Shown piece by piece: positions 1 through 64,000 of a stretch of DNA of 64,000 nucleotides (position 1 is the first letter of the stretch; every line of letters begins with the position of its first letter). The stretch is from Diploptera punctata (lineage: Eukaryota; Arthropoda; Insecta; Blattodea; Blaberidae). Where the stretch lies: assembly GCA_030220185.1 (NCBI GenBank), contig JASPKZ010007250.1:1401001-1465000 (forward strand). Direction: 5' to 3'. The notes beneath the pieces are model-generated. The model saw only the letters and a list, made by a program, of their open reading frames with translations, searched no databases and had not been told where the DNA came from. Made by a program: the position numbers and the translations under genes.

Positions 1-235
1 GTACAAGATTAAATACCTCACCTCATATCCAATCCTCTAAGTAGACCGTGGTTTCAAACTCTAGGGAGCTTCATCTTCAATATTTTCTTGTTGACTGAAA
101 GTACTGAACATGAAGCCGCCAAGGCTTTGAAACTGCAGTCTAATTAGAAGACTGGATATGAGGTGAGGTATGAAGCATTTTAATTAAATCTTAAATTAAA
201 CCTCATAGTGATTTTTTCCTATAAAAGTTCAATTC
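1..235. mobile_element. Penelope-like foldback copy, CTCATATCCA-arm family
   Basis: Palindrome: the left arm (tacctcacctcatatcca) is the inverse of ggatatgaggtgaggta at 154-170. The right-hand tail runs through cctcatagtgattttttcct and ataaaagttcaat, the 3' end shared with copies at 21.3, 30.0, 50.3 and 61.7 kb. No coding sequence lies between the arms. The left end is at the window edge, so no TSD can be read. Confidence 0.7.
100..146 (+). ncRNA. Hammerhead-like motif, degenerate core
   Basis: Core 104-110 reads CTGAACA, with C at the conserved G8. Stem II is GAAGCC/GGCTTT (112-117/123-128), then GAAA. Stem III is ACT-GC-AGT, with predicted cleavage after C140. Probably inactive, but stem III covaries with sister copies (ACC/GGT, ATC/GAT). 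Confidence 0.55.
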
Positions 236-432
236 ACAATACAGTTGGCTTGTTCCTAAATCAGGAACATTCGAGTTTTGAATTTTAAAATCCATTGATT
301 GGACTGAATTTTAACCTATGATCTTAAAGTCCACTGAGCTATGCACATAAGCAGTAAAAAGACAGTAAATAGTAATAGTAGTAGTAGTCCTGGTCACTCC
401 ACTGGAAAACAGAGGGCCTTGATAAAAGCTCG

Positions 433-745
433 GGTCCCGCACCTTAGCCGAGTGGTTAAGGCAGGAAGCCTTGACGCAGAGCTATGGGACTTGCGCTGAT
501 TAGAGTCTCCATGGGGGAAGAAATTTTCTCATGGTATTTCAGCCAGTATGGGACCGGTGCCCACCCAGCATCGTGAGGCATTTGGGTAGCTACAATAAGT
601 AGTGACTTCAGGTTGAGAAAACCAGCTATAACAGCTGGGGGACTTGACATGCTGACCACATGTCAACCCTACACTGGCTGGATGATCATCTACCTATGTG
701 ATTGACACATGCGGATGTGAGGCCAGCAGCCAGCTCTCAATCTTT
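433..745 (+). mobile_element. tRNA(Leu/Ser)-headed SINE
   Basis: Begins with a tRNA-like head: A-box TAGCCGAGTGGTTAAGGC and a B-box-like segment near 495-510. The body has conserved ccacccagcatcgtgaggca and acatgctgaccacatgtca. The same element is at 27891 (+), 35669 (-) and about 47915 (-). Confidence 0.75.
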
Positions 746-902
746 GGGGGCTCCAATCAAATGCCATTTTTGTGATGCTATCATTCTCTCTCCTTAACAT
801 TTCCATTTTCTAAATTTGATTTCTTTACAAATTTCATTTTGATTTGTTCTTCTCCAATGTTCTTTATTTGTTAAGTAAGACAGTAATGAAAGTCTTTTCT
901 TT

Positions 903-1340
903 TTCTTCCTTCCAAGTATTAGGCCAAGGCCTGTTACGATTCTATAGAAAATTTTCCCTCCAGCGTTTCATAGGACGGCCCAGTGATCTTCGCCCTCTTG
1001 GTATATAATTATAAACAGCTTTGGGGATCCGAATTGAACTCATTCTTTCAAGATGATGTTTCCAATTTAGTTGGTACTGTTTAATATATTCCAAAATTGG
1101 CATAGTCTTCAATTCCTTTAAGATATCGGTGTTTCTTTTCCGATCCCATCTGGTGTAACCCGCTGTTCTGTGCATGAATCTCATTTCACAAGCCGTTATT
1201 CTGCTTTCATGTTGTCTTTTTAGTGTCCATGCTTCACTACCATAGGTCAACACTGGTCTAGCCAAAGTGTTATATAAACGTAATCTGGTGTTTTTTTGTA
1301 CAAGGGATGGTTTCATAACTTGATTAATAATTCCCAAACT
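903..1340 (-). mobile_element. LINE family A, 5'-truncated 3' fragment
   Basis: The minus strand is open for about 140 codons (1364-942), containing [40 protein letters not shown] and [19 protein letters not shown], the conserved tail after reverse transcriptase in an arthropod non-LTR retrotransposon. It ends with the family's 3' end (ccaagtattaggccaaggcc in + orientation). Other copies: 9082-13392 and 50897-51062. Confidence 0.8.
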
Positions 1341-1571
1341 TAAGTATAAAATATATTTGAACATTTAAAACAATAAAAAATTGTACCTTTGATGGCATTC
1401 GTCCTCAACAAATTAAAATTGTTTATAATAATCAGCAGGCCTTTTGGAACTAGTTCCATTTTCAAAGTTGTTCTATAGGGTACTAATTGTGTTTTGTGAG
1501 CATATTGTATAATGGATTGATCTGATTTTTAAAAGTATTAAAATATATTTGATTTTATATTTTTTATTTAG

Positions 1572-1779
1572 ATGAAAGAAATGGTTTTGCTGCAGCATAC
1601 AAACCAACAATTGTTGAAACAAATTGGTATGATTGGTGGGAAAAACAAGGTTACTTTCAGCCAAACCCATCAGCTGCAGGCAGTGTATTCAGCATGGTTC
1701 TGCCTCCACCCAATGTTACAGGCACGTTACATCTAGGTCATGCTTTGACGTGTACCATTCAGGATGTATTGGCTAGATG
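1572..1779 (+). CDS. VARS2: ValRS exon 1 in window (catalytic core, HIGH motif)
   Basis: Preceded by ttttatttag and followed by gtaaga. It enters with the last two bases of a split codon and reads through [11 protein letters not shown] and [15 protein letters not shown], the HIGH-type ATP-binding signature (HLGH). It ends two bases into a Trp codon. Confidence 0.95.
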
Positions 1780-7700: not shown

Positions 7701-10700
7701 ATCTTTCTCGTGGTCTACCTTGTAGTTATTTTCCTTGTATCTTGAGATTTAACAGTCTTTGTGGTAGTCTTTCCTTTTCTATTTTTTTAAATGTCCAAAC
7801 CATTTTAGTCTATTTTTTCTATGTCTGTTATTAATTGAATGTAATAAAAATATGATATAAATAAAAAAATGAGTAAGTTTAATATAATAAATATTTAATT
7901 TTAGGAAGTTATATTTTGAGGTTATTTTAATTACATTATTTTTGGTCTGGACATCTTACCTCAATATTAATGTTGATTTGTTCTTGGACATGTTTCAAAA
8001 CAATTCTGTTTTATCGTCATCTTTCCCAGACTGGAAGAACAGAAACAGAGTTATGAATTTTGATATTCCGATGGAGGGTGACCTTGTTTGGAGGTTCTTT
8101 GGCCAACCACAGGATGGAGCTGACATCGACATCCAGGTGGTGCAACATAATGCAACATAAATAAAACCAGTCTGGGAAAGCTGACGATAAAACAGAATTG
8201 TTTTGAAACATGTCCAAGAACAAATCAACATTAATATTGAGGTAAGATGTCCAGACCAAAAATAATGTAATTAATATAATAAATTTGGAAATTTTTAACA
8301 TTATGAGGTTTTATTAATAAGAATCAAATGAATTGTGATTTCTTCTTACCTCATACTTCTATGTTTTTTTAAACACAGCACTGCAGTATCGGCGACCATC
8401 GTCACCATCATCAGCTGTTTTCACGACTGTCAATTTTTTCTTTTGCCAGTAATTATCCAACTAGATGGCAGTTTGGATAATTACCGGCAAAAGAAAAAAT
8501 TGACAGTCGTGAAAACAGCTAACAATGGTGATGATGGTCGCCGATACTGTGGTGCTGTGTTTAAAAAAAACACAGCAGTATGAGGTAAGAAGAATTCACA
8601 GTACATTTGATTCTTAAAATGAGTAAGTCCTTACATTTAATTTGCCAAGCTGTTCCTATCTGTTACAGTTTATAATAACTAAAATGTTTTAAGTTTTGCA
8701 GACTTGGTCATGTTTAAGGATGTTCATGTGATATATTTTAACTAAATTATCTTTTTGATTTTCAGATAAAGAAATCATTGTTTCTACAACTAGAGTGGAA
8801 ACAATGCTAGGAGACTCTGGTGTAGCAGTTCATCCTGAAGATAAACGTTACAAAAGCTTGCATGGAGGATATGTCTGGCATCCTTTCAGAGAAGAGAGAA
8901 TTCCTATAATCTGTGATGAGTTTGTAGACCCAGATTTTGGTACAGGTAAGAGAAATATTCAAATATGTTAAGTGTTAAAACTATTATCTTATATACAGAG
9001 TTTTCATTTAAATAGCACTTTAACAAAATAAATTATGTAGAAGTGTAATTGATAGACCAGTTAAAACAGAACATAAGTTAAATATCTTCTTCTTCCTTCC
9101 AAGTATTAGGCCAAGGCCTGTTACGATCCTATAGAAACATTTCCCTCCAGCGTTTCATAGGACGGCCCAGTGATCTTCGTCCTCTTGGTATATAATTATA
9201 AACAGCTTTGGGGATCCGATTTGAACTCATTCTTTCTAGATGGTGTTTCCAATTTAGTTGGTACTTACTTACTTACTTACTCACTGGCACTATCGAACCC
9301 GAAGGTTCATGGCCGCGCGGACATAAGCTCTCCATACATCCCTATCCTGAGCCAATGCTTTCCAATCATTCCCTGTATAATCTGCTTCCCTCAAATCATA
9401 GTTAATGTTGTTCTCCCACCTCAATCTTGGCCTACCAACTGGGCGTTTTCCCTCTGGCTTTCCTACAAGAAGCTTCCATGCACGTCTTTCATTCCCCATA
9501 CGCGCAACATGTCCTGCCCATCGCAGTCTACGAGACTTAACTGTTCTTATTATATCTGGCTTCCTATAAAGACCATGTAGTTCATTGTTATGTAGTCTTC
9601 TCCATTCACCTGTCTGTTCATCTCTCTTTGGTCCAAAAATTTTCCTAAGAACTTTATTCTCAAATACTCGTAATCTCCTTTCCTCCCTTAAAGTAAGAGT
9701 CCATGTTTCGCACCCATATAATATAACTGGTAGAATAATAGTTTTATATATTTTCAGCTTAACGTTTTTTGAAAGGAGTTGGGACATCAAAAGTCTCTGC
9801 AATGCATAATAGCATGCATTTCCAGAATTGAGCCTATGTTTAAATTCTTTGTGCATCTCATTCCTATTTGTGATTATTGTTCCTAGGTATTTGAATTCAG
9901 CCACTTCCTCAAAATTTCCCTCATTTGTCATTAGCTGTCCATTTCCATTATATACTGAATTTCTATGTGTGACCATATATTTAGTTTTACTGATATTTAC
10001 CTCCAGTCCTAATTTCTTAGTGTTACTCAATAGTGTGTGCGTGTTGGCCTTTAGTATCTCCTCGCTATCGGCCAGTAGTACTACATCATCAGCATAAACT
10101 AACAGCTTATTAATACCATTGAGTTGCAAGCCTTCCTCATTCTCTAACGATTTAATTGCATGCTCTAGTACAAAATTAAATAGTAGAGGAGATAGTGCAT
10201 CTCCTTGCTTCAACCCATTCTGGATTTCAAAAGTGTCTGAAAACTGTTTGCCTACACGCACCCTACTCTTTGAGCCATTTAGACACATTCGTATAATGTT
10301 TTTATTATTAATTTAACATTTCTCAATGAAAGATAAATTAAATTTGAAGAGAAAAATTTTCGCCTAGACCGGGACTCGAACCCGGGACCCTTGGCTTTCC
10401 GGGCCAAGTGCTCTACCAACTGAGCTACCGAGGCCTCGGTCTAGGCGAAAATTTTTCTCTTCAAATTTAATTTATCTTTCATTGAGAAATGTTAAATTAA
10501 TAATAAAAACATCATTAGAAGCCTTACTGGCTTTATAAAGTAATGTTAAAATTCCCAATAAATGTCTTCTTAACTAAGAAGCCGCCATTTGCAAAGATAG
10601 AAACAATGGTTTCAAAAGCATTTGGCGATAGGGAATTACAACGTATATAAGAGAAAAATTTGCGTCTAGATCGTAACTCGCCTCGGTAGCTCAGTTGGTA

Positions 10701-13700
10701 GAGCACTTGGCCCGGAAAGCCAAGGGTCCCGGGTTCGAGTCCCGGTCTAGGCGAAAATTTTTCTCTTCAAATTTAATTTAACATTCGTATAAGTCTAACT
10801 AACTTTTTAGGAATTCCGAACTCCAGCAGGATACTATATAACTTCTCCCTCTTAATTGAATCATATGCTTTTTTGAAGTCTACATATAGTTGATGTACAG
10901 TACCATTATATTCCCATTTCTTCTCTAAAATCTGTCTTATACTAAAAATCTGATCTGTTGTAGACCTGTTTCTTCTAAATGCACATTGATGATCTCCTAG
11001 AATGTCATCAATATAGGGAGTAAGTCTGCTTACTAATATATTTGTTAGAATTTTGTACGAAGTTGAAAGTAATGAGATGCCCCTGTAGTTGTTGCAATCA
11101 GTTTTATCTCCTTTCTTATAAATTGGTATGATAATTGATTCCTTCCATTCATCTGGAAGAGCTTCTTTTTCCCAAATCTTACTAAGCAACCAGCGTATCT
11201 TGTCCATCAATTTTTCTCCCCCTGATTTTATCAGTTCTGCTGGGATCTCATCTGAACCTGATGTTTTATACATCTTCAATGTTTCAATCGCCATTTCAAC
11301 CTCTAATGCACTTGGCTCTGCGACCAGCATTTCTGCTGTCTGTAACTTATCCTCCTCAATGTCCTGTTCTGTATGTACATTTAATAGCTGATTAAAGTAA
11401 CCTTTCCATCTATTTAATATACTCCTAGAATCTGCAATCATATCCCCTTTTTCATTCCGAATTATGTTTGTTCTAGCCTGAAAACCCTTCTTCTCTATAC
11501 TAATTCCCTCATATAATTCTCTAATGTTCCTATTTTTTGCATTCATTTCAAGATCATTAATCTTCTCTCTCAAATATTCCCTCTTTTTACTCTTTAGTAA
11601 CTTGGTGGTTTCATGTCTAACACTACCCAATTGCTCTAAATTTACCTCATTTGGCTCGTGTAACCATTTCATTTTTGCTAGCTTTCTTTTCTTTACAATG
11701 TCGGCACATTCCTCATCAAACCATTTCTTGTTTTGCCTCTTTTTTAAACAACCAATGCTTTCTGATGCTGACAATTTAATAGTATCTCTTATAGCCTCCC
11801 ATTCTTTATTTATATCAGTTTCTTCTTCGTTTGCCACATTGTCATATGAAGATTCCAGTACTTCAAATCTATTAGCAATTTTGATTTGGTATTCTTGCCG
11901 CAATTCATCATTTTTCAAGTTTTTTAATTCATATTTTACAGAATCATCTTTAGCGTTCGTTCCTCTCATAAGCGATAGCCGTTGTCTGATTTTCACTGTG
12001 ACCAGATGATGATCCGAATTGCAGTCTGTCCCTCTAACTGATCTAACATCAATGATGCTACTGTGCCAGCGTTTATCCACTAATACATGATCTATCTGGT
12101 TCCGAGTTTCTCCATCTGGGGACGTCCAGGTGTATTTATGAATATCCTTATGCTGAAATGTTGTGCTCTTAACAATGAGATTCTTTGAGGTGGCAAATGT
12201 GACTAATCTAACCCCGTTGTCGTTACTATCTTCATGAAGACTGAATTTGCCTATTGTTGGTTTGAATATATCTTCCCGCCCCACTTTTGCATTAAAATCT
12301 CCTAAGACAATTTTCATATGATATCGTGAAAGGCTATCAAATAAGCATTCTAATTCTTCATAGAACTCATTCTTGATCTTGTCATCTTTATCTTCTGTGG
12401 GGGCATGTACATTTACAATTATAAAATCATGTCGTTTACCCTTTAGAATTATGTATGATATCCTATCACTAACAAATTTAATATCTCGGATAGCGGATAG
12501 GATCCTCCTTCTGACTAAAAAACCCGTTCCAAATGCAGGTCTTTCTGCACCCCCATAGTATAATGCAAAGCTTCCTGATTCCTGACTACCTTCTCCTGGC
12601 CACCTAACTTCCTGTAAAGCGACTATATCCAAGGGCGATTTATCCAATTCCCGCGTTAATATCTCTAGTGCCCCGCTATTGTATAAAGTCCTAACATTGG
12701 TACTGTTTAATATATTCCAAAATTGGCATTGTCTTAAATTCTTTTAAGATGTTGGTGTTCTTTTCCGATCCCATCTGGTGTAACTCGCCGTTCTGCGCAT
12801 GAATCTCATTTCACAAGCCATTATTCTGCTTTCATGTTGTATTTTTAGTGTCCATGCTTCACTACCATAGGTCAACACTGGTCTAGCCAAAGTGTTACAT
12901 AAACATAATCTGGTGTTTTTTTGTACAAAGGATGGTTTCATAACTTTATTAATAATTCTCAAACTTTTATTTTATCTCTTGGTTAACTCTTGTTTTTTCG
13001 ACCCCGACGCTATTAGGGCATCCGAGGGCTAGGGAGTTTTTCCTTTCTTCCATTTCTTCTTTCCTTTATTTTCTTTTCTTCTCCAGAAAAGCCTGACCAG
13101 AGGCTATAAGATGGCAGCCCCATCACTGGCCTTGCCTTCCTTTGGCCAGCAACCAATCGAAGGGACTCTTATTATGCTTTCAAGTCTTATGCGAGAATTT
13201 CCCGGGAGGATCAAACTAATGACAACCAAAGCATTAAAAAGGACATCTCTTGGAAGAAAAAAAAAATTTGCTTTTTAGCACATGGAATGTACAAGGCATT
13301 AACTATAAAGATGATCAATTAGATGATATATTGTGCAAAAAGGGGATTTCATTAGCTGTAATATCAGAAACAAACAAGAAATTACAAGGCACCATAAGTT
13401 AAGTATGGGAAATAATATTATGAGGTTCTTAATTCAATGAATGAATGGGTTAATTCTTATATTACCTCACATTTCATGTGTTTTTAAACATGGGAACTGC
13501 AGTTTTCAAGAGGAGTCCCTCTCATCCTCAGTCGATAGTATGACTATCGGACTTTAATTTGAATCAATGTTTTTATTATTCATTTCATACATCTCACTGG
13601 AGCATATGTTTGAGATGTATGAAATGAATAATAAAAACATCGAAAGAAGCCATACTGGCTTTATAATGTAATGTAAAATTCACCAAATAAATATCTTCTT

Positions 13701-15034
13701 AAAAAAGAAGTTGCCATTTGCAAAGATAGAAGCAAAGGTTTCATAACATTTGGTGCGTGGAAATTGACAACATATATAAGAGAAAAAGTTTGCATTTAGA
13801 TTAGAACTCGCCCAGATAGCTCAGTCGATAGAAGCTACTTAAGCTTTGAAACCTGTTTTATTAGAAGACTGGATACCAATATGGGGTGAGGTATATAAAG
13901 TATTTTAATTTAAATCTTAAATTAAACTTCACAGTAATTTTTCCTATAAAAGTTCAAACCTCTCTTTTGTTGCCATTCTGTCATCTGTTCTGTTTGTATT
14001 ACTACAGTAATTAATTTGTGCTTCAGAAAACATTTCAAGAAGTCTTCTATTTCCGAAGATTGAAAAGAATTTTACTTATTATATTATTTTTGGTCTGGAC
14101 ATCTTACCTCAATATTAATGTTGATTTGTTCTTGGACATGTTTCAAAACAATTCTCTGTTTTATCTTCAGCTTTCCCAGTCTGGGAAAGCTGAAGATAAA
14201 ACAGAGAATTGTTTTGAAACATGTCCAAGAACAAATCAACATTAATATTGAGGTAAGATGTCCAGACCAAAAATAATATAATTAAAATAACCTCAAAATA
14301 TAACTTCCTAAAATTAAATATAGAATTTTACTTGTTTTTCAGGTGCTGTGAAGATAACTCCTGCACACAACAGTGTAGATTTTGAAGTTGGTAAGAAACA
14401 TGGATTGAAGACAATTCCCATCATCACAGAACAAGGTCATCTCAATGCAATGTGTGGAAAATTTGCGGTGAGTAATAACCAAATTGTACTCATATTCTTC
14501 TCATTATTTAAATTTTACCAAACATCAAATTTCAAAAGAAAATGTTACCAGGAAAAACTATTAGGAGTTTAAGATAAATTAAAATGTTTCATACCTCTCC
14601 TCATAATCAATATTCTAAGTAGATCACGATTTCAAGGTCTTGGCGACCCCATCCTCAGTACACTCTTGACGACTGATGTTATGTCGATAAGACATGTAAT
14701 ATTGATACATAGAGAAAACATTCCAAAGAGGATAAATATACTGGAGGAAATTGCAATCCTAAGAGAAATTGACAACAACCTGATTCTTAATGAGAATATA
14801 CTCAGTTCACACAATCCTCTATACAAATTTTTAACAACTAAGTCAGTGCTTCAACAAGGGTCAACAAGTACAGACCTAATGCATTCTGCTGATGATGGGA
14901 CTAGTCCTAAAAGGCCTACAGAGTTTTAAAACAACTTAAGTTGAGGAGACGGACTCACAACGTCTTACTATGAATAAATACCTCAACGGAAACTTACCAT
15001 GAATTTTATTAGTATTGACTTTGCAGCCAATCAA

Positions 15035-18000: not shown

Positions 18001-21000
18001 GGATAGAATGAAGAGTGATGAGATAAGGATGCAGTGGAATAGTAGGGAAATGGTTGAACATATACAAAATTATCAGATTAAATGGTTCCAACACGTCCAG
18101 AGAATGTCAAATTCCCGTTTACCAAAGATGATTTACCAACCCAACCCTAAAGGCAAAAGAGACCTCGGAAGACCCTTCAACCGATGGAAAGATCAGTTTT
18201 TGTAGTCGCAGAACGGGCATGATCACCCAATACTGCATATGGAAGAAAAAGAAGAAGAAGAAGAAAAAACCAATATGAGGTAAGATGACAACTGTCTCAA
18301 CTTATTTATTATCTGTTATCTTTCTGTTCTAGGTTTGTTGACTGCCAAAAAATGGCAGAGAAATCTATGGAGGCTGTACAAAATGGTGATTTGACATTAG
18401 ATCCAGTCAGCTTTGAGAAGACGTGGTTTATATGGCTTAATGATATCAGGTAAAATTTTCATCTTGTTTTTTTGTCACTACTGTATTTTGAAAAAACTTG
18501 AATAAACACAACTGTGAAATGAAAAGAAAAACATTTATATGATGCTCTTAGTAAAACAGTTGCTAGAAATAATTTTTGCTAAAAGTTCAGGAAAAAAAAA
18601 GTGTTATATTTAAATTAATATTGGGAAGTTATTTAGGTAGGATAACACTATGAGGTTTATTTTAATATTGTTTAGTTGTTTCTTCACTCACCTCATACTT
18701 CTTAACTCACAAGCAGATTCGAGTTTCTTCACTTCATTTGTGACATTCTCAATGCTGTATTACGTTCACAACTGAGAATGTCACAAATGAAGTGAAGAAA
18801 CTTGAGTCTGCTTGGGAATTAAGAAGTATGAGGTGAGTGAAGAAACAACTAAACAATATTAATATTGGGAAGTGAACATTATGAGATTATATCATTAATA
18901 GTGAGTGGAGAACATATCTTTAACGACTCACCTCATATAATTTCAAATTTCTTTGAAACTGGCAGTTTCAGACAATACCTTGCCCCTCTTCAGTCATGGC
19001 TTCCACTGATGAAAATCTCTGGTTGTTGATCTCTCCAAGGACATCACCTCTTGTGCTGTCCTTGGAGAGATCAACAACCAAAGAATTTCATCAGTGGAAG
19101 CCATGACTGAAGAGGGACAAGTTATTGTCTGAAACTGCCAGTTTCAAAGAAATTTGAAATTATATGAGGTGAGTCGTTAAATATATGTTCTCCACTCACT
19201 ATTAAAAAAAATGTTTCTTTTTTTAAATAAAAATTAATGGGAAATGACACCATGAGATGAAGCAAGTGTGTATTCCATGCTGCCCACATGACACTTTAGA
19301 CACAGTTTGTCACCATCCAATTGAATGGAAAAAGGAGTCAAGTATCTCAACACTGTGATTGTTTGAATTGAGATATTAATACCAGTATTTCTCCTGCCAT
19401 CTGGTGAAGATGAAAGAACTCTGAGATACTCATATTGAATTGAGACATTAATTAAGGTAGAATATTTTTTATCACTCACCTCATATTGTTCTTCTTATTT
19501 GATTATAAACTAGTTTCGGAACATAGTTTCTGTTCCATCCTCAGTATCGTCACGACCATTGTTCTGTCGTCTTGAAGAGCTGTCCTTCTCTCCTTCCATT
19601 GGCTGACTGAAAACCTCGAAACCAGGTCATTCTCACCGGGAAATTCTAAGTTCATTAATTTCTTCTTTTCGCTCTTTTGAATGTAGATCTTTTCCCAAAC
19701 AGTAAGTTCTTTTGGTTTTTCTATTTGTTTTAATAATTTAGCTTCTTTCTCGATAAGATGTTTTTCAGACCATGCATGGGCAGCCACTGCAGATTTTTCT
19801 ACTTCCCCTTTTTTGACATTCCTGAGATGTTCTTTCACTCTAGTTTTCAAATTTCTCTTAGTTTTTCCTATGTAGAACTTCTCACATTCTTCACATTTAA
19901 TTTGATAAATCCCTGATTTGTTTTCTTCTTTAATTTTCTCATTCTTATTACGTCTAATCAGTCTACTGATGCTGTAGTCATTTTTGGGTGCTAACCTTAT
20001 GTTGAAATCTTTACATTTTTTTTTTTAATTTGTGGTGTTTTAATGGATGATATGTGAATTTTCTAAATTTTACATTATCTTCTTTAACTTTTAGAAGAGT
20101 GCTTTGATTAATAAATTTTTGTCTTTTGTATTTGTTTATTTTTTTGAGTATCATTTTTATTGTAAAACCATTTTTTTGTGGCTACGTTGATTATGTGTTC
20201 TTTTTCTTTTTCATAATTTTCTTTGTTCATTGGTATGTTCACTAATCTATGTGTCAAACTATTGAAAACTGCTTCTTTGTGAGCTATGTGATTGAAATTT
20301 AATACCAGTACTCCTCATGCAATCTGGTGGGGGTGGAATTAGCTTTGAGATACTTGTACTAAAAAACATTTAAGGGATATTAAAAATGGTGAAATTTATA
20401 AAAATTGGCAGTAGCAGCTCATCATTTGATACAGAAACACATAATTGAAAAATAAACTAAACTATTAAAACACTTAGAAAAACCAACAGAACTCACAATA
20501 TGGGAAAAGACATATAGAGTGATTCAGAAATATGGCTATACGTTTGATCGCATTTTGTGACGAAAATATTATTATTAAAGGAAATATGATGTTATCATTG
20601 AAAAGGGAATCCTTCAAATTACAACAATAGAACAAAACAAAACAAATCACTGCTCACGTGCAGCTTGGCGGGTTGATTTTTGTGGGCTAGCGTCGAACAC
20701 CTCCACAATTCTCTTCGTTGTTTCTGCATCCGTGCTAATGCGAGGCCTTCCAGGAGGTTTGATTTTCTGCATCCTTCCCGTTTCCAGCAGTCATTTTCTC
20801 CACTTCCCCACAGTCGACGGCTGCAATGCTATCTTAAACTCACGTCTTGCCCGTCTTGCAGCCTCACGATCATTAGCGTACGTTACTGCCCATGCAGCAA
20901 TTGTAATTTGCTGTTGCATATTCAACACCATTTTTACTAATGACGTAAGTTCTATACTGTTTTGTTTTATTCCATTGTTGTAGTTTGAATAATTGCCTTT

Positions 21001-45000: not shown

Positions 45001-48000
45001 TAAATGTTTTCTTTTTTTTCAGCGCACATTGTTACAACGAAGACTGATATGTACTGTAATTACATTAATGTTATAAGATCACTGACTGGTTGCCATAATG
45101 TCTTGATGTTATCGAGCGGAGAAGAACTGAGGAACTGCTCTGTTTCTGAGGCTGTGGGACCTCACACAACAGTTCATATCATGAATAAGGTAAAGAACCA
45201 TTATTTTTAAAACTCATTTTGAATCACTGTTGAGGTTACCTCATAAAAGATTAAAAATGATAAAACTGTACCTGAGATCTCAGTCAACTAAAACTTTGGT
45301 TAAAAAATTTGTTTAAAGAATTTTTTAAAGATTTATTAAACACACTGTGTACATTAGGATACAATTATTGAAAGTTATTATCATCTGTGTAGAATTTTAC
45401 TAATATTTGAAGAGAAAAATTATACGCTCAGACCGGGACTTGAACCCGGGACCCGTGGTTTTCTAGTCCAAGTGCTCTACCATTTGAGCTACCTGAGCAA
45501 GTACCGATCTAACCGCAAATTTTTCTCTATATACGTTGTAATTCCTGCCCACCAAATGCTTTGCAGCCTTTGCTTCTATCTTTGCAAATGGCGGTTCCTA
45601 TATTAAGAAGAAATATTTGGGAATTATACATTACATTATAAGTGCCAGTACGGCTTTTTTCGATGTTCTTATTATTAATTTCATACATCTCAATGATGGA
45701 TAAATCATATTTGAAGAGAAAAATTATACGCTCAGACCAGGACTTGAACCCGGGACCCTTGGTTTTCTAGTCCAAGTGCTCTACCATTTGAGCTACCTGA
45801 GCAAGTACCGATCTAACCACAAATTTTTCTCTATATACGTTGTAATTCCTGCCCACCAAATGCTTTGAAGCCTTTGCTTCTATCTTTGCAAATGGCAGTT
45901 CCTATATTAAGAAGACATATTTGGGAATTATACATTACATTATAAATGCCAGTACGGCTTTTTTCGATGTTCTTATTATTAATTTCATACATCTGAATGA
46001 TGGATAAATCATATTTGAAGAGAAAAATTATACGCTCAGACCAGGACTTGAACCCGGGACCCTTGGTTTTCTAGTCCAAGTGCTCTACCATTTGAGCTAC
46101 CTGAGCAAGTACCGATCTAACCGCAAATTTTTCTCTATATACGTTGTAAATTAAAAATATTATAGATATAACAAATAAAAGGACAAGAAAAATAAACCGA
46201 TTAATATTTAAATCTCCATGGGCTTTCTTCTTGATATACAGTTGATTAGGTGGTATTGTTCACATTTTTGGTCACATAGCTTGCAGAGGCACTGGTTCAA
46301 TGTGAGGTGGAACCCTTTTTCGGTACATATTCTGTAATGGAATCCATGTGTGGCGGTCCTCGTGAACACGTGTCTTAGGGAGAAGTTTGGTTCCTTCCAT
46401 TCTTCGGTGTTCATCGCTGTGGTCAGGAAGAATCCGCGGTCTATATCCTCTGTTTTTTCTGATCTCTCTCTTATGTGTGCTTCATAGGCTGGGGTGTGTG
46501 GCAGGTTTTATTTTGACGCTATTTCTCTGATGAAGAAGTCAGTCTTGGTTAGATGGTATATTAGTCTGGAGCTTGTTGATCTTGAAACCCTAAGTACTCT
46601 TCAGAGGTAGGTAATTTTGACCATTTTTAGTCTTTTCAGATTTATATTTAAATTAATATTGGGAAGTATGATTTGCTATGTTTAATCGAGTCCAGAATAT
46701 GGTGATTGTGTAGCATGCTATTGGGGACATCTTGATGTGAAATAGTCTTATAGCTGTTAATATTATTCGTTTTTAAACATCTTAATGATGGACAAATTAT
46801 ATTTGAAAAGAAAAATATACGCCTAGACTGGGGTTTGAACCCAGGACCTTTGACTTTCTATGTCAATGCTCTTCCATCTGAGCTATCTAGGCCTCCAATC
46901 TAAACGTGTATTTTTCTCTTACACATAATTAATTCCCTAACCCCAAACGCTACGAGCCGTTGATACGATTTTTGCAAATGGCGGCTTCTTTATTAAGAAG
47001 ACTTTTTGTTGGGAATTTAAACATTAGTTATAAAGCCAGTAGTGCTTCTTTCAATGTTAATATTATTCGTTTTTAAACATCTTAATGATGGACAAATTAT
47101 ATTTGAAAAGAAAAATATACACCTAGACTGGTGCATATTTTTCTTTTCAAATATAGTCTTATAGCTGTTTCGACTGACAGCTTTTATGACATTTCGAATG
47201 TCAAAAGTGGCCTTTATTGCTGCATTGCATCTTTCCTGGATGTGCTTGGTGAATGATTTTTCTGTGACTTGCAACGTTAGACCGAGATACTTATAGCAGT
47301 TGACTAGAACCCTAAACAGGGTTCTGTTTAAAGACTTTTGAAACATGTTTGATATTCAGTTGTCGATAAATAAATATTACTTTTTCATTAGCTGTCGACC
47401 ATAGTGATCTTGTGGTTATGTTCCTCGCCTCTATTTCCAATGGTCGCAGGTTCAAACCTGGCTGGAAAAATCCAAGGACAAGTCTTCTGGGTAGGGAGTT
47501 TAAACCTTGGATCCCGAGTGAAGATTTTCAGGCTCGTAAAAAAACCACAAGCCTGAATAAAAAGGTGTCTGTGTAAAATTTAACTGACCTTCATTCATCC
47601 AAGTAATACCTTAGTTGTCTACTAGATGTCTCATTGAGGCGATGTGCTAACCACATGTCACTCAATAATAAATAAGGTGAATCTGGTATATCTTACCTCA
47701 TAAATATTTGTGTTTCATTCGACATGTTTCAATATGCTGAAATATGATATGAAATGTAAAAAATGGAGAAGTAGAAAAGTCTGCAGTAGCTCCTCATGTT
47801 TAGTCGGAAAAGCATAAAATCGATGTAAACACAAAAATTATTAAAACAGTTAAAGAATACAAAAGAACTCGGCTTTTGGGAGAATATCTACATACAGAAG
47901 AACAAGAACTCCAAGCATGACAGGCCTAGAAGGCCCTTGGCCTACCAGCCAGCTGCTTGCCTCACATCCACATGTGTTAATCACAGAGGTAGACGATCAT

Positions 48001-51000
48001 AAGCAAGTGTAGGGCGACATGTGGTCAGCATGTCGGGTTCCCCAGCCGTTATAGCTGGTCTTCTCAACCTGGGGCCGCTACTTATTGTAGCTACCCCAAA
48101 TGCCTCACAATGCTGGGTGGGCACCGGTGCCATACTGGCTGAAATACCATGAGAAAATTTCTTCCCCCATGGGGACTTGAACCAGTGCAAGTCCCGTAGC
48201 TCTGCACCAACGCTTCTTGCCTTAACCACTCGGCTATGGCGCAGGACAAAGAACGAGAACAGGATTACGAATTTTGAAACTCCCAGGGAAAAAGATTTGA
48301 TTTACAAGTTCTTTGGTCAGCCAGAAGATTGAGTGGGAGCCGACATCCAGGACTGACACATAAAATTCAATAGTCTGGAAAAGCTGATGATGGTAAAGCA
48401 TGGCATGTTGAAACATGTTCAAATAAAACACAACAATTCATGAGCTAAGATGACTCAGGAATCACCTTATTTATTAAGAAGAACCTTATAATGTTACTTT
48501 CCATTGTAATCTATCTATCTATATATATATATATATACATATATATAAACAAATGTATATCTATTGATGTTTTTATTATTAATTTCAGTTCTCACTGAAG
48601 GATAAATTATATTTGAAAAGAAAAATTTTTGCCTAGACCGAGACTCAAACCCGGGACCTTTGGCTTTCCGGGCCAATGCTCTACCAACTGAGCTACCGAG
48701 GCGAGTTGTGATCTAGACACAAATTTTTCTCTTATACACGTTGTATTCCCTCGCGCCAAATGCTATGAAGTTTTTAAGTTTTTGCTTCTATCTTTGCAAT
48801 TGGCAGCTTCTTAGTTAAGAAGACATTTATTGGGAATTTAAACACTACTTTATAAAGCTAGTAGAGCTTCTATTGATGTTTTTATTATTAATTTAACACT
48901 TCTCACTGAAGGATAAATTATATTTGAAGAGAAACATTTTGATAGAAGCAAAGGCTTCATAGCATTTGGCACGATGGAATACAACGTATATAAGAGAAAA
49001 ATTTGCATCTAGATTGCAACTCACCTTGGTAGCTCAGTTGATAGAGCATTGGCCCGGAAAGCCAAAGGTCCCAGGTTCGAGTTTTGGTCTAGGCGAAAAA
49101 AAAAAGTTTCTCTTCAAATATAAATAAAATGTATATCTGTCTGTTCTTTATAGACTTCTAAACCGTTCAACCAATCTTTGTGAAAATTTGTATATACAGG
49201 TGTTTTTAGATGCGGCGAGTGTTTATCCATTTTCTATTATGTGTTAAAATCATTAGGTGTAGGAGTTCACCAGAAATGAAAATTTAAAAACCGCTCTAGC
49301 GATCGCAATTTTTGATGTTTCACAACAAATTCACATAATAAAGTTAGGAATTTTTACATTACGAGGTTTTGATGATTCATTTGATTTTAATTTCACAACA
49401 AAACTTGGAATATCCTATTAAAATAAACCGAGGTATGTATTATCTAAAAATAGTGAAATCCAACCGTTAGAAGTGGGGGTTTATCTGAAATTTGAAATTG
49501 AATTTTACTCTAGCAACCGCCATGTTTCGTTCATTGCAGTGTATACCATATAATTAATTAACGCTCAACATTTCATTTATTTAGACGTAGCAGTGCACAC
49601 CGGATATTAGTTAGTCTGTTAATAAAATTTTGTTGGTGGACACATTCCAAGTCTTGTTACCATTTTGAGTACCCAGCCACTGATTTTCCGGCCCTGACGT
49701 TTTCACGACAATGTTGCCGATATGGATATTCAGTGGGAGGGGCCGCTTTATGTATGCGATTAGCAGATATACGCTGACGACATCTCTGCAATTTCAAACT
49801 TACTAGCACGCTATAGTTGTATCAAGAGCAGTGATTGGTTGTGGCAGACATCTACTCTCACTACACCCATATCCTTATTGGCAGTAGAGGGCGAATTCTC
49901 CCTTTACCCCTCGTATAACCTAAACTTCAAAGCCGGAGATATGACGGCTCGAGTATAGTTGTGTTTATGGTGAAATTAAATGTTTCTTACCTCTCCTCAT
50001 ATAAATCTCCTAAGTAGATAGCGATTTTGAGACCATAACGGTCTCATCTTCAGTACTTCTTTGGCGACTGATGTTATGTCGATCGGAAGAAACTCTTCTT
50101 CTTCCCTCTGTTGGTGGACCGATGAACCTATGGATCAGGTCAAAATTTGCAGGCATCCAGAGGTTCATTGGTCCACCAACAGAGGGAAGAAGAAGAGTTT
50201 CTTCCGATCGACATAACATCAGTCGCCAAAGAAGTACTGAAGATGAGAACCTTATGGTCTCGAAATCGCGATCTACTTAGAAGATTTATATGAGGAGAGG
50301 TAAGAAACATTTAATTTCACCATAAATTAAACCTCATAGTGATTAATTCCTATAAAAGTTAAATAGTTGTGTTTGTTTGGTTGCAGGTAGTACCTGAGAA
50401 CAGAGGATTGGAGGATGAGAGGCTGAAGAAGAAAGAAGAGACGCTGCAAAAGGAACTGGAGAAGTTATTGAAAGTGAGAGCATCAAGTGGATACCAGAGC
50501 AAAGCTCCACAACATGTGCAGGAGGCTCATGCCATCAAGGTAATTGTCTTACAGATATTACATTTGACAATTAGGATTTCTTAATATTTTTCTGAATAAT
50601 GTATTGTGCTACCAAACATGGCCTTAATTTACAACATAATTATATCTTCAACAAAAACCCTAATTTTCCAGGAAAAAAACTAAAAAAAGAAATTGTCACT
50701 CAGGAACTGCATAAACTAAGGACATGACTCAGCATGTCAAATTTATGGTCCGATTTTGCTGGTTTATGGAACACATCCTTTTGTTAACCTATAAATTATG
50801 CACCTATATCTATCTATCTATCTATAATTGCATAGCCTATTGTTGAGCCATACCCTCTCCTTTGTTGGGAGTTTTAAACCAAGTTACTTTTTAGTTCTTC
50901 TTCTTCCTTCCAAGTATTAGGCCAAGGCCTGTTACGATCCTATAGAGAAAATTTTCCCTCCAGCGTTTCATAGGACGGCCCAGATGGCAGCCCCATCACT

Positions 51001-52539: not shown

Positions 52540-53045
52540 GAATTTAAATTAAAATGCTTTATACCTCACCTCACATCCAGTCTTCTAATTAAACTGGTTT
52601 CAAAACCTAGGTGGTTTCATCTTCAGCAGTATCTCGACCGATAAATTATATTTGAAGAGAAAAATTATACGCTCAGACTGGTGTTTAAACCCAGGACTTT
52701 TGGCTTTGTAGGCCAATGCTCTGCCACTGAGCTGCCTGAGAAACTCCATTCAATCTAAATGCAAATTTTTCTCTTATACATTGTTAATTTCTGGCAAAGG
52801 TCCCCAAACCCCAGTGTGAGCATATAATTTTTCTCTTCAGATATAATTTTCAATCTATAATTGAGTTGGATAAAATGTTTTTACATCACTTCATAAAGTT
52901 ACATGTTTTCACAATACTGGTTTCAGGTTTGAGTCGGAGTTTTACTGAAGATGAAGGCCCTTTGAAACCAGTATCATGGAAACTTGGAACTTAATGAGGT
53001 GGGATGTAGATATGTTTTGTCCAACTCAATTATAGATTGACATGT
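52540..53045. mobile_element. Penelope-like pieces with a tRNA-like repeat between
   Basis: 52540-52630 is a left arm (tacctcacctcacatccagt). 52630-52860 is a minus tRNA-like sequence (tgctctgccactgagctgcc) and an inverted scrap. 52861-53045 is a foldback (ttttacatcacttcataaag and inverse) with CTGAAGAT-GAAGG-c-CCTTT-GAAACC on the plus strand. Confidence 0.65.
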
Positions 53046-54314: not shown

Positions 54315-55346
54315 TCAAAGTTAAAAATGGGAAACACATTATGAGGTTCTTAATTAATAAATTAATGAGTCATTTTTAACATCTTACCTCATATTTCATG
54401 TTTTATTAAACACGGTAACTATAATATTTAATTTTAGGAAGTTATATTTTGAGGTTATTTTTAATTATATTATTTTTGGTCTGGACATCTTACCTCAATA
54501 TTAATGTTGATTTGTTCTTGGACATGTTTCAAAACAATTCTGTTTTATCGTCAGCTTTCCCAGACTGGTTTTATTTATGTTGCATTATGTTGCACAACCT
54601 GGATGTCGATGTCAGCTCCATCCTGTGGTTGGCCAAAGAACCTCCAAACAAGGTCCCCTGACGATAAAACAGAATTGTTTTGAAACATGTCCAAGAACAA
54701 ATCAACATTAATATTGAGGTAAGATGTCCAGACCAAAAATAATATAACGGTAACTATAGTTTTCAAATGATCTTGTCATTCATTTTCAACCGCCATTATG
54801 ACTACCGGATATTCGTTGGAATCTCCCTCTATAACGTTGCCATCTGGTGTTGATTTGATGAACTTTGAGATATCGTTGCATAGGAAAAAGAAAAAGAAAT
54901 TTGGACACTCGCACAAAGGAACACTTTAGAAATATTAAAAATGGTGAAATTGAAAAATCAGCTATTGCAGCACATAGTTTGATGGAAGGTCATAAAATTG
55001 AAAAAGAAGCTAAACTTCTAAAACATTTGGAAAAACCTTTGGATTTGACAGTTTTGAGAGAAAATATTTATTCAGAAGAACAAATTTAAATCCATGAATT
55101 TCGACATTCCGGATGAACGTGACCTCATCTCGAAGTTTATCAAATCAATACCAGATGGCAACGATATCTCGAAGTTCATCAAATCAACACCAGATGGCAA
55201 CGTTATAGAGGGAGATTCCAACGAATATCCGGTAGTCATAATGGCGGTTGAAAATGAATGACAAGATCATTTGAAAACTATAGTTACCGTGTTTAATAAA
55301 ACATGAAATATGAGGTAAGATGTAAAAATGACTCATTAATTTATTA
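54315..55346. mobile_element. Penelope-like inverted dimer containing a second PLE
   Basis: TSD attgtcctctat (54303-54314, 55347-55358). Close relative of 5132-5662: same arms (aattaatgagtcatttttaa, cttacctcatatttcatg) and a longer plus-strand gene tail ([49 protein letters not shown] then frameshift). Confidence 0.88.
54424..54746. mobile_element. Nested Penelope-like foldback
   Basis: TSD acggtaactata (54412-54423, 54747-54758), lying inside the left arm of the outer element. Family of 7893-8270; its right half is shortened so the palindrome is asymmetric. CTGACGAT-AAAACA-gaat-TGTTTT-GAAACATGTC at about 54658-54692. Confidence 0.9.
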
Positions 55347-55357
55347 ATTGTCCTCTA

Positions 55358-57777: not shown

Positions 57778-57895
57778 CTAAATTATTTCAAATTTCAATA
57801 ATTTATTTTTTGTCAAATATTTCTGCAAGGTGTTTTGATAAAAAATCTCATAATTTTAAATATACTAAAAACTGCAAGAAAGCATTATATACTGT

Positions 57896-59989: not shown

Positions 59990-60280
59990 TACAAAAGGAA
60001 GTAACATTAAGAGGTTTATATTTCATTGAGAAATGTTAAATTAATAATAAAACATCATTAAGAGGTTTGTTTAATAATTAAAACATTTTGTCTGTTCATT
60101 CTTATCTCTTAGAGTTGTTTTTGTCGAACATACATTTCAGAGCCTCTTAGCCCCATCATCAGCGATTACAGACGATGGGGCTAAGAGGCTCTGAAATGTA
60201 TGTTCGACAAAAACAACTCTAAGAGGTAAGAATGAACAGACCAAATGTTTTAATTAAGAAATTTTATTGTTACACCTTTT
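59990..60280. mobile_element. Penelope-like foldback (cttatctcttagag family)
   Basis: Left box aagtaacattaagaggttta, then arms tgttcattcttatctcttag and ctaagaggtaagaatgaaca around gattacag. Here TATGAGGTAAG is replaced by TAAGAGGTAAG. Minus-strand hammerhead core in the left arm. A scrap of the tRNA-like repeat (gagaaatgttaaattaataa) sits in the left box. Confidence 0.75.
60124..60170 (-). ncRNA. Hammerhead-like ribozyme, CUGAUGA core
   Basis: Minus: CTGATGA (60162-60156), U, stem II GGGGCT-aag-AGGCTCT with wobbles, GAAA (60138-60135), then tgtatgttc. Core canonical; stem III short and ambiguous. Confidence 0.55.
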
Positions 60281-60457: not shown

Positions 60458-61619
60458 AGATATAATGAGTATTATATTTGAAGAGAAAGATTATTCGCTC
60501 AGACTGGGGTTTGATCCCAGGGCCTTTGGCTTTCTATGCCAATGCTCTACTAGTGAGCTATCTGAGATATTCAAATCTAAATGCAAATTTTTCTCTTTTA
60601 TGCTGTTAATTCCTGTTGCTGAATGCTATGAGCATTTGCTCGATCACATAAATGGCGGCTTCTTGTTTAAGAAGACATTTATTGGGAATTTAAACACTAC
60701 TTTATAAAGCCAGTAAGGCTTCTTTTGATGTTTTTATTGTTAATTTAACACTCCTCACTGACGGATAAATTATATTTGAAGAGAAAAATTATACACTCAG
60801 ACTGGGGTTTGAACTCAGGACCTTTGGCTTTCTAGGCCAATGCTGTACCACTGAGCTACGCGACAAACTCCAATCTAAATGCTAATTTTTCTCTTATACA
60901 TTGTTAATTCCCAAGCACCGAATGCTACGTATAAATTTTCTCTTCAAATATAATTTATCCTTCAGTGAGAAGTGTTAAATTAGTAATAAAAACATCAAAA
61001 GAAGTCCTACTGGCTTTATAAAGTAGTGTTTAAATTCCCAATAAATGTCTTCTTAAACAAGAAGCCACAGTTTGCATGATCGAGCAAATGGTTGTAGCAT
61101 TCAGCGCTTGGGAATTAACAATGTATAAGAGAAAAATTTGTGTTTAGATTGGAGTTTTAGCGAAAGTATGGACGTTGAAACAGAAGGATATACAGAGACT
61201 TAGATCTGCTGAAATGAGATATCTTCGGAGGACTGCAGGATACACACTACTAGATCACAAAAAAAATGAAGACATCTTAGAAGAATTACACATGGAATCT
61301 TTAGAAAACAAAATTTCTGATTATAAGTCAAGATGGGTACAACATGTTCATCGAATGGAAGATCACAGGATACCCAAACTAATGTTAAGATATCAACCTG
61401 CAGGAAGAAGAAGACCAAGGACGTCCACTCAAAAGACTTCTGGATGGTGTTTCTCTTGAGGCCGAAACAGGTCAACAAATGGCCTAAATTCGTGAATGTA
61501 CTATGATGATGATGAGATTGGAGTTTCTCAGATAGCTCAGTGGTAGAGCATTGTCCTAGAAAGCCAAAGGTCCTGGGTTCAAACCCTAGTCTGAGCATAT
61601 AATTTTTCTCTTCAAATAT
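60458..61619. mobile_element. tRNA-like repeat multimer of at least three units, 16-bp TSD
   Basis: TSD aagtagtattttattc (60442-60457, 61620-61635). Two minus units (60470-60730; 60731-60930), inversion at about 60945, then a plus unit to tctcttcaaatata. The plus tRNA-like part (61526-61600) is split by the LINE at 61158-61515. One insertion event with several unit copies in both orientations. Confidence 0.88.
61158..61515 (+). mobile_element. LINE C-terminal fragment, 12-bp TSD
   Basis: TSD agattggagttt (61146-61157, 61516-61527). Plus frame: [60 protein letters not shown], then a frame change near aagaagaagacc. 3' end atgatgatg. Confidence 0.87.
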
Positions 61620-61665
61620 AAGTAGTATTTTATTCTGATATACTATTTTAAGATGTTACGAGTAT

Positions 61666-62643
61666 TGAACTTTTATAGGAAAAAATCACTATGAGGTTTA
61701 ATTTAAGATTAAATTAAAATACTTCATACCTCACCTCATATCCAGTCTTCTAATTAGACCGCGGTTTCAAATCCTTGGCAGCTTCATCTGCAGTACTTTC
61801 TCGTCGACCGATGTTATGTCGATCAGAAGAACTACTTCTTCTTCCCTCTGTCGGTGGTCAGATAAATCTCTGGTCCAGTCAGAATCCGCGGGAATTTTAA
61901 AGTTCATAAGTTTTTCTTTCTTGTTTTTTTAATGTGCATTTTTTCCCAAACCGTGAGTTCTTTTAGTTTTTCTATTTCTTTATTACTACTTCTTCATCAC
62001 ATGTATCCAGCCTTAGCTGATAACATGAATCCATTGCTTATGCTATAAGTTGCATTGCGGCTGCATTTGAACTGCAGCTTATGTGGGCATTCAAGGTGAG
62101 TGTTCACAAGGTTAAAAGAAAGAGATATAGGAAAGACAGAAATGAACCCTTCGACCTCGAATACTCTAATACCATCAGGATCGAAGATAACTAGAGGTCA
62201 GGCAAGGGAGACTGGGTAGGAAAGGAAAAAGAGGGATCTGGTACTAGAAAAGAAAGAAATACCAGATCGGTTAAAGATAAAAGTAAGGAGCAAAACACAA
62301 GTAAATGGAAGCAATGTTTTGCTCAGCTTGGGCACCTTATGGTCGCCATCCACATATCCCCTAGATGCGGACACCTGAGGGTATTGTATTTGTTTAATTA
62401 GACTGGATTTTGATTCAATTAGATGGTTTTTTCAGACCAAGCATGAGCAGCTACTGCTGACTTTTCCACTTCACCATTTTTGACATTTCTAAGATGTTCT
62501 TTCACCTTTGTTTTCAAATTTCTTTTCATAACATCAGTCAACGACAAATTACTGAAGATGAAGCCGCCAAGGCTTTGAAACCGCGATCTACTTAGAAGAC
62601 TGGATATGAGGTGAGGTATGAAGCATTTTAATTAAATATTTTA
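61666..62643. mobile_element. Penelope-like inverted dimer, 10-bp TSD, with repeat insertion
   Basis: TSD ttacgagtat (61656-61665, 62644-62653). Left arm atacctcacctcatatccag; minus-strand gene tail scraps; right arm ggatatgaggtgaggtatga. An unclassified repeat (61988-62388; relative of 39360-40010) is inserted in the gene segment. Confidence 0.83.
62546..62596 (+). ncRNA. Hammerhead-like ribozyme, GAAGCC/GGCTTT stem II
   Basis: CTGAAGA 62552-62558, U, stem II GAAGCC-gccaa-GGCTTT (62560-62576), GAAA 62577-62580, stem III ACC-GC-GAT (one mismatch; ACC-GC-GGT in the sister copy at 61.77 kb), H17 = C62588. Preceding AATTA would pair with TAATT found after cleavage in sister copies; here TACTT. 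Confidence 0.66.
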
Positions 62644-62659
62644 TTACGAGTATGCCTAT

Positions 62660-63585
62660 TTAAAAGCTTATGTGATATCACTCGCATCTGCATTGATACC
62701 GGGCATAAAATCGGGGGAAAACAAGTTATGAAAAAATGAACCAAGGTTGTAGTTTATTAACAATATTATGTAACCTTTATTTAGACGATGTGCTGAGTGA
62801 GTGGAACCAACAAGTACGGGTAAACCAAGTACCCAGAGGAATAAATGTTAACAGAAACAATACATCAATACACTGCTGTTCGGGGATGACCAAGTTCTCA
62901 TTGCAGTATCTGAAGACGAATTACAATAGAGCATACATAGGCTACACTAAGCAAAGTGGCAGAAGCATATAATTGCAAGATTTCAACATCTAAAACTGAG
63001 ATAATGGTTTTCAGAGGAAACGATCCTGTAAGATCAAAAATTGTAGTAGATAATGTTTTACTTAAACAAGTATCACACTTTAATTATCTGGGAAACAACA
63101 TACCTTACTATTACGACAAGAACCTTCAAACAAAACTTTCCAGATACCACCTTAAGTGTGGTACAATTAGGCGAACACTTGGAAATAAATCGAGAAAGGA
63201 AAACAGTTGAAATTTTACAAGATTATGGCAGTCCCTACTCTATTATACGGCAGTGAGAACTGGGTCCTGAGACAGAAAGAAATTGAGAATATCCAATGGA
63301 CAGAAATGAAATTTTTACTTGCAGTTAAGGGATGTACATGACGAGTTCATAAAAGAAACGAAAGTATAAGATAAAAGTTAGCAGTAATGCCAATTACACA
63401 TCAAATCTATAATTACAAGAAGCTATGGACTGAACACCTGCAACGAATGGATAACAACAGACTTCCGAAGTAGGCTTGGATGTACAAACCACGAGGGAGA
63501 AGAGATCCTGGCAGACAAAGAAAGCGATGGAGTATTGAGTCGGAACAGGCCATGGAGCCTATACCGTGAAGATGATGATGATGAA
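62660..63585 (+). pseudogene. LINE reverse transcriptase, heavily decayed
   Basis: QGCSLLTILCNLYLDD (RT motif QGcxLSPxLFNLYLDD), then out of frame LLFGDDQVLIAVSEDELQ, YNCKISTSKTEIMVFRGNDP, QVSHFNYLGNNIPYYYDKN, GTIRRTLGNKSRK, then shifts to ILQDYGSPYS. Several frameshifts and stops. gatgatgatga 3' end. Confidence 0.75.
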
Positions 63586-63639
63586 TATACCACTTTTGTC
63601 ATCCCAATTTTATTAAAAAAAAGATTAAAATAAAAATAT

Positions 63640-63815
63640 AACATATTTTTAGTTTTTGGAGTTATATGGATGCGAAACATGATGTCTTAAGATGTCACTT
63701 TATCAACCGTGAGAAACTGTTAGGAGTATTTGAGAATAAAGTTTTTAGGGAAAATTGTTGAACCAAAGAGAGATGAATAGATAGGTGAATGGATAAGACT
63801 TCATAACTGTGAGCT
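63640..63815 (+). mobile_element. RTE 3' region fragment, decayed
   Basis: Resembles the RTE stretch [20 protein letters not shown] and [20 protein letters not shown] (ttatatggatgcgaaacatg; accaaagagagatgaataga), with stops and indels. Stops at about 63815, where an aat-rich repeat begins (ataataataatttatttaag). Confidence 0.65.
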
Positions 63816-64000
63816 ATATAATAATAATAATTTATTTAAGCTGGCAAAGTTAAGGCCTCAAGGACTTCTCTTACACTCAACCAGCGAATAATAAAAAAAT
63901 ATATATACTTATTACAATTTTGAAATATTATTGAAGTATGAACTAATCCACAATACGAATGTAGTGTAATATTAACACTAACAAAACATAGAATAAGATA

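Follow-up and report, generated by a model that had tools for sequence, protein, structure and literature searches.

The stretch of DNA considered here, hereafter the window, comprises 64,000 nucleotides of Diploptera punctata (contig JASPKZ010007250.1 of assembly GCA_030220185.1, positions 1,401,001 to 1,465,000, forward strand). Many short repeated elements in it share an RNA-like motif resembling the hammerhead ribozyme, and several of these motifs lie just behind pieces of a GIY-YIG endonuclease gene. The elements are very probably fragmentary insertions, in many subfamilies, of a GIY-YIG Penelope-like element (PLE), whose end region behind the endonuclease gene would encode a minimal hammerhead of type I in which one nucleotide is inserted after A9 and stem III is very short and often a palindrome. 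The original prediction, made from the letters alone, had hammerhead PLEs fill the window; this was overstated, as long interspersed nuclear elements (LINEs) and tRNA-bearing elements also occupy it. The principal hammerhead and endonuclease features, including the open reading frames (ORFs), are the following.

50229..50282 (+): hammerhead with core at 50237, right arm of a head-to-head pair, with a 5-bp stem I, a stem II and a palindromic AUCGCGAU stem III (covariance model, RNAcofold).
50008..50061 (-): left-arm hammerhead of the pair with 50237, GAAA changed to AAAA (covariance model; flanking repeat ATAGTTGTGTTT).
29417..29470 (-): hammerhead, left arm, no tail detected, with an endonuclease fragment, 29853-29512(-), upstream.
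29940..29993 (+): hammerhead, right arm, tailed (covariance model, flank and tail comparison).
19499..19552 (-): hammerhead directly behind an endonuclease fragment (covariance model, homologue match).
19506..20024 (-): open stretch with a GIY-YIG catalytic domain (Pfam, 33.1 bits vs. a cutoff of 22.6).
34521..35090 (-): PLE GIY-YIG endonuclease ORF, 61% identical to a GIY-YIG protein of Diploptera punctata.
34383..34433 (-): hammerhead behind the 34521..35090 ORF (covariance model, homologue match).
25538..25957 (-): GIY-YIG endonuclease fragment, followed by a hammerhead at 25323-25369(-) (Pfam, covariance model).
26543..26809 (-): GIY-YIG endonuclease fragment, no hammerhead detected behind it (Pfam, covariance model).
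7978..8223: two hammerheads head-to-head (8020-, 8181+), flanked by a 14-bp repeat, with a tail on the left arm.
14126..14234: two hammerheads head-to-head (14170-, 14190+), flanked by a 12-bp repeat, with a tail on the right arm.
18948..19152: head-to-head hammerhead pair, 3-bp stem III, G in place of the extra U, left arm tailed, flanking repeat not found.
21639..22003: two hammerheads head-to-head, flanked by a 13-bp repeat, with a tail on the right arm.
22672..23408: 737-bp palindromic pair of a diverged PLE-like family, hammerhead-like ends with a mutated core (CCAATGA/CCGATGA), 12-bp flanking repeat.
42079..42199: two hammerheads head-to-head, flanked by a 13-bp repeat, with a tail on the left arm; stem I of the left copy has 6 bp (with G-U).
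54512..54697: two hammerheads head-to-head, flanked by a 12-bp repeat, with a tail on the left arm.
60118..60213: head-to-head hammerhead pair, tail undetected on both arms, 13-bp repeat at an odd geometry.
61748..62597: two hammerheads head-to-head (61793-, 62552+), flanked by a 10-bp repeat, with a tail on the left arm.

On the two strands of the window, the CTGANGA...GAAA pattern is listed at 41 sites. The scan was written as CUGANGA, 0 or 1 nucleotide, a hairpin of at least 4 bp and GAAA; with this stem II demanded, 30 of the 41 sites stay, whereas 40 dinucleotide shuffles average 0.45 such sites and never exceed 2. Hence the shared RNA-like pattern of the original prediction is real, but an extra nucleotide between A9 and stem II, found in 30/30 copies (U in 28, G in 2), had been missed. 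A9, the extra U and the first base of stem II form AUG in 20 of the 30 copies, and the extra U may belong to an ancestral AUG. Hammerhead position 7 truly varies, as had been claimed (A 14, C 7, G 5, T 4), and the hairpin is 11-19 nt long, changing by steps that are not multiples of 3. Clustering of the 30 copies yields 14 clusters at 75% identity and ten at 65%, so that the earlier estimate of at least a dozen families roughly holds. Every one of the eight stem II pairs named at that time is present, seven of them within the 30-copy set and the last, GGGAC/GTCCC, in the two copies with CCAATGA/CCGATGA cores (22749-22764(-) and 23316-23331(+)); the three places put forward for cleavage assays are also real copies (50237+, 29948+, and 19544-).

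The hammerhead fold was evaluated on an alignment of 20 of the 30 copies, all selected for 4 bp or more in stem II. When the hammerhead structure is imposed, 83.3% of cells are paired and 62 cells carry double changes, compared with 62.8% and 24.6 after partner shuffling and at most 40% paired when the structure is slid. Stem II, with 93.9% of cells paired and double changes in five of its six pairs, owes part of these values to the selection. Since stem II was used in choosing the copies, stem I provides the independent covariation test. Its three inner pairs sit in the hammerhead register, adjoining C3 and H17, and are 78.3% paired vs. 53.3% with shuffled partners and 23-48% when slid by 1-3 columns, with 18 double-change cells. 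For stems I and III alone the values are 74.0% paired, 61.2% shuffled and 24-37% slid; their observed total is never reached when the 20 nt behind GAAA are shuffled (2000 trials) and is reached in 46 of 5000 permutations of the upstream arm among 14 representatives. The A15.1-U16.1 pair is retained in 19 of the 20 sequences. With covariation above that of shuffled alignments, a hammerhead fold is well supported. A covariance model of our own, R1, gives 56 matches at E<=10 and 46 at E<0.02, 20 of the latter being training rows.

The link with PLEs begins with the endonuclease. A same-strand endonuclease-homologue match ends at most 60 nt from the core in 14 of the 46 copies, whereas 500 random placements give a mean of 2.6 and a maximum of 8, and an opposite-strand match is found near the core in 1/46 only. 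The GIY-YIG family (PF01541) exceeds its Pfam cutoff in three of the ten window ORFs tested. The homologue P0002, also from Diploptera punctata, is 97% identical over 101 residues to 20012-19710(-), and among PDB sequences the open stretch 19506..20024(-) weakly matches intron-associated endonuclease 1 (E=0.0015). For the ORF 34521..35090(-), no Pfam family is found at E 0.001, GIY-YIG remaining below cutoff for 34524-35114 (16.0 vs. 22.6 bits). Among the ORF pieces scanned, RVT_1 matches are confined to two ORFs of a LINE, one of which also has an Exo_endo_phos domain, and no full-length PLE copy was recognised in the window.

Of 23 neighbouring hammerhead matches at most 700 bp apart, the order is head-to-head in 14, tail-to-tail in 8 and same-strand in 1; with strands drawn at random the head-to-head mean is 5.7, and 14 is reached in 0/10,000 trials. 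Flanks and tails were compared in 17 hand-picked pairs, in some of which the arms belong to differing subfamilies (25361/25964, 52626/52945) and three arms of which stand outside the E<0.02 list (22772, E 0.23; 43300, E 0.12; 8520, placed by palindrome symmetry). Exact outer-flank repeats of at least 12 nt occur in 7/17 true pairs vs. 5/272 mismatched pairings, and of at least 9 nt in 9/17 vs. 42/272, the mismatched counts being raised because copies share end sequences. A well-placed flanking repeat of 9-14 bp is seen in nine of 21 candidate pairs; it is unconvincing or absent in 80/104, 13531/13831, 16485/17603, 17753/17797, 18993/19107, 25361/25964, 43300/43398, 52626/52945, 60162/60169, 14658/14889, 54789/55248, and 8414 with a guessed partner. 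In the nine end-mapped pairs, the distance from the core is 86-100 nt for one end and 126-142 nt for the other.

Tails were scored by local alignment with the pair under test left out. Exactly one tail was found in 12 of the 17 pairs, two in none, and no tail was detected in five; an 18th pair, one arm of which runs off the window, stands outside this scoring. In the pair 22772/23308 no tail was detected, yet its two ends differ by 39 nt. As the probability of at least 12 one-tailed pairs is 0.034 if tails are independent at their observed frequency, a rule of one tail per insertion is suggestive, not proven. Such insertions would be two-sided: both nicked target strands would prime reverse transcription of separate RNAs, starting at either of two sites some 40 nt from each other, with the two cDNAs then joined at their 5' ends. 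By eye, a 5' splice-site-like TGAGGTRAG is conserved roughly 50-65 nt behind the core in many copies, and in tailed copies a downstream ACCTCAT could pair with it. A PLE origin, as originally proposed, is well supported by the endonuclease fragments directly upstream, by the inverted copies in head-to-head order, by the flanking repeats and by a tail on one side.

The hammerhead PLEs of the window belong to an already published kind of element. Minimal type I hammerheads are described in PLE pseudo-long terminal repeats (pLTRs) (Cervera and De la Pena, 2014, as cited in PMC6155905 and PMC7761336), and their cleavage as dimers is published (PMC6155905; PMC7761336; PMC6466107). The copies in the window are alike in being of minimal type I, devoid of a proper helix III and located at the end of a GIY-YIG PLE, with a palindromic stem III that suits dimers (PMC6466107; PMC7761336). 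In contrast, they are largely head-to-head pairs, and the tandem pLTRs of the published elements are not seen; the extra nucleotide after A9 is a further candidate difference. In Penelope of Adineta vaga, inverted pLTRs, most often head-to-head, have 8-10 bp target-site duplications, and a 31-bp tail is optional on one inverted pLTR (PMC3846280). Head-to-head pairs, flanking repeats and a one-sided tail recur here, but as many short copies instead of the low copy number found there. In PAc, a Poseidon PLE of Anolis carolinensis, cutting and extension take place on both target strands, and the optional tail is accounted for by two start sites of reverse transcription that adjoin each other (PMC11167929). 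The two ends mapped here match these tail and no-tail start sites, and the distance to the cut is similar, 28 nt from A9 to the predicted cut in copy 8181 vs. 26 nt into the ORF in PAc. However, the start site is apparently alike on both strands in PAc in vitro (PMC11167929), whereas the two arms of one insertion differ here in 12/17 pairs.

Stem III measures 1-4 bp and is often palindromic. Its segment is of even length in 12 of 14 representatives and fully self-complementary, centre included, in nine of these 12, one odd-length representative and one that has lost U16.1 being left out of the count; for self-complementarity of the central pair, p is 0.009 with chance set at 6/16. In most families such a stem III cannot stabilise a monomer, so that any activity would probably require dimers. 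The minimum free energy (MFE) dimer computed by RNAcofold for two copies of 50237 is a double hammerhead. Self-cutting of tandem PLE transcripts at UH|stem I would then proceed chiefly in dimers held together by the palindromic stem III. The template RNAs of the nine end-mapped pairs would have been uncut at that site, since the element continues beyond it. Within a head-to-head pair cis-dimers are impossible, one hammerhead being sense and the other antisense, and the head-to-head copies are probably ribozyme fossils.

Several results weigh against the interpretation of the elements as hammerhead-bearing PLE fragments. At none of the thresholds used does Rfam return a hammerhead match in the whole window, a search run with no positive control for minimal PLE hammerheads, nor does it when 50195-50300 and 18850-19560 are searched alone. 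Rfam gives nothing but tRNA matches at the gathering threshold and mostly microRNA-type matches on palindromes below it. The original prediction had named a lack of covariance-model hits as grounds for its own refutation, and for Rfam this is formally what is observed; we read the silence as Rfam models not covering minimal PLE hammerheads, and a match to this library is no defining trait of the ribozyme type. The covariation of stem II is partly built in, as rows were picked on it, and stem I has merely 0-2 bp in the commonest subfamily (8181 type). All three hammerhead helices appear, by reading of the structures, in the MFE dimer of 0/13 other copies cofolded. Two of the 14 endonuclease links (43398+ and 54789-) rest solely on the last 30-odd residues of P0010, which may be end sequence. 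Among 15 ORF pieces scanned (two of which overlap), no PLE-type reverse transcriptase was found. A tandem pLTR arrangement is also missing from the window, where fragmentary copies could not show one. Finally, the one-tail statistic is modest and five of the 17 pairs lack a detected tail.

Other explanations of the motif have been considered. The one that survives best holds that it is a conserved 3'-terminal RNA hairpin of PLEs, used for protein binding or for starting reverse transcription, with an ancestral likeness to a hammerhead from which cleavage has been lost. Mapped insertions that run uncut past the cleavage site and a stem III too short for stable monomers would agree with it, and hammerhead mutants of the Anolis PLE insert normally in vitro, with no RNA-seq reads beginning or ending at the cut (PMC11167929). 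Yet the Anolis hammerhead does cleave in vitro (PMC11167929), and in the window the catalytic letters and the helix register are conserved while stem I is rewritten by paired changes, which is the mark expected of selection for cleavage. We consider a cleavage-free hairpin possible but rather doubtful.

A protein-coding cause, in which CTG ANG ATG would be the end of the endonuclease ORF or contain the start codon of a next one, is very improbable. P0001 ends with ...ALRMSQKM and its match continues through the motif, an ATG stands at A9-U-G in the 20 copies noted above, and in PAc the ORF starts at this same place, at stem II, its start codon being preceded by C3 and G8 (PMC11167929). These facts may account for the extra U, and for it alone: the covariation of three helices is left unexplained, most frames opened by the ATG stop within the motif region (by eye), and hairpin lengths that differ by steps not divisible by 3 break the frame between families, on which ground the explanation was rejected.

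It is equally improbable that the copies are animal non-LTR retrozymes and not PLE ends. Retrozymes are likewise short, AT-rich, hammerhead-bearing and dispersed, but they are built of tandem 150-450 bp units (PMC7229834), whereas inverted pairs with pieces of an endonuclease gene are seen here. No tandem array of hammerhead units exists in the window: 0/16 tandem-repeat rows overlap a hammerhead match at E<0.02, and only one in 23 neighbouring matches keeps the same orientation. The endonuclease gene is attached in 14/46, and stem III is minimal as in PLEs, most invertebrate retrozymes being reported with a stable helix III (PMC7761336). This explanation is thereby mostly refuted. Lastly, chance or the composition of AT-rich DNA has a negligible probability: the loose pattern alone does give a mean of 16 matches in shuffles, with 85 observed, but the explanation is refuted by the stem II counts and by homologous flanks in multiple copies.

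A second type of short element, a 304-bp unit bearing a tRNA-like sequence, displays a comparable insertion pattern. Its loci are as follows.

45403..46149 (-): tandem array of the 304-bp tRNA-bearing unit (tandem-repeat and BLAST matches).
10293..10786: tRNA-bearing head-to-head pair with pieces of a LINE ORF on both sides, flanked by a 12-bp repeat, with a single tail.
32371-32947, 48562-49123, 3299-3423, and 60471-61619: other tRNA-bearing head-to-head loci.

All 19 tRNA-like sequences above the Rfam threshold in the window overlap matches to this unit. The pairs 10361/10753, 32438/32920, and 48630/49095 have 12-bp flanking repeats, with ends 24-32 nt and 64-68 nt from the tRNA. In the fourth, tiny pair (3299-3423) the left arm consists of the tail only; the fifth (60471/61619) has a 17-nt flanking repeat, no tail on either side and a right arm interrupted by other sequence. 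Flanking repeats of at least 10 nt, ranging over 10-17 bp, are present in 5/5 pairs vs. 0/20 mismatched pairings. Two discrete 3' ends about 40 nt apart are used, one of each per insertion in 4/5 pairs, and among 25 BLAST 3' ends of the unit, 13 lie at positions 252-267 and 8 at 302-306, the rest at 177, 278, 288, and 297.

The layout of a tRNA-derived short interspersed nuclear element (SINE) is not found, as in three head-to-head pairs only some 24-68 nt separate the tRNA from the 3' end. German cockroach tRNA-derived SINEs are described with tRNA heads and microsatellite or poly(A) tails (PMC9191728); here the tRNA is instead near the 3' end, and by eye no microsatellite or poly(A) tail is seen at the mapped ends. 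Behind the tRNA comes AATTTTTCTCTTC, a run resembling a Pol III terminator, exact in 12/19 copies by eye and similar in the others; in many copies the inverse of this run, AAGAGAAAAATT, precedes the tRNA. With AAGAGAAAAATT before it and AATTTTTCTCTTC after it, the tRNA could sit on a long hairpin. Junctions between the tRNA unit and hammerhead PLEs at 13823-13866 and 52640-52793 may be template switches or nested insertions; these complex loci (13831 and 52640) were not used as proof of shared machinery.

Since head-to-head pairs, flanking repeats and two 3' ends form the same insertion signature in both, a PLE-type machine may mobilise the tRNA elements too. We hold it quite possible, if still somewhat short of an even call, that such a machine moves this second, unrelated short element, with a tRNA in the place of the hammerhead. 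Mobilisation of a tRNA-bearing element by PLEs would be new: neither such an element nor a strict one-tail rule was found described in the consulted portion of the literature on PLE-mobilised SINEs, Penelope tails, and cockroach PLEs, most subscription papers being outside the search.

Besides these elements, the window contains at 9290-12647(-) the LINE with Exo_endo_phos and RVT_1, the ORF of which is apparently split by the tRNA-bearing head-to-head insertion at about 10290-10772. A probable host exon with a class I tRNA synthetase match (PF00133) lies at 6141-6617(+). The same 39-bp tandem duplication, with one consensus unit, occurs at 5445-5524 and 55127-55206, within two copies of one repeat (5281-5667 and 54962-55350) that are 96% identical.

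The role of minimal PLE hammerheads has been described as still a mystery (PMC7761336). For this question the window supplies 14 sequence clusters with rewritten helices, and many pairs whose ends record reverse-transcription starts. The pattern of a tail on just one arm of each insertion makes a claim about PLE priming that can be tested. If the shared machinery is true, the tRNA element rides on a PLE and not on a LINE, tRNA-derived short elements would have in PLEs a second kind of helper, and the two-sided insertion rule with its two start sites would be a general mark of the PLE machinery.

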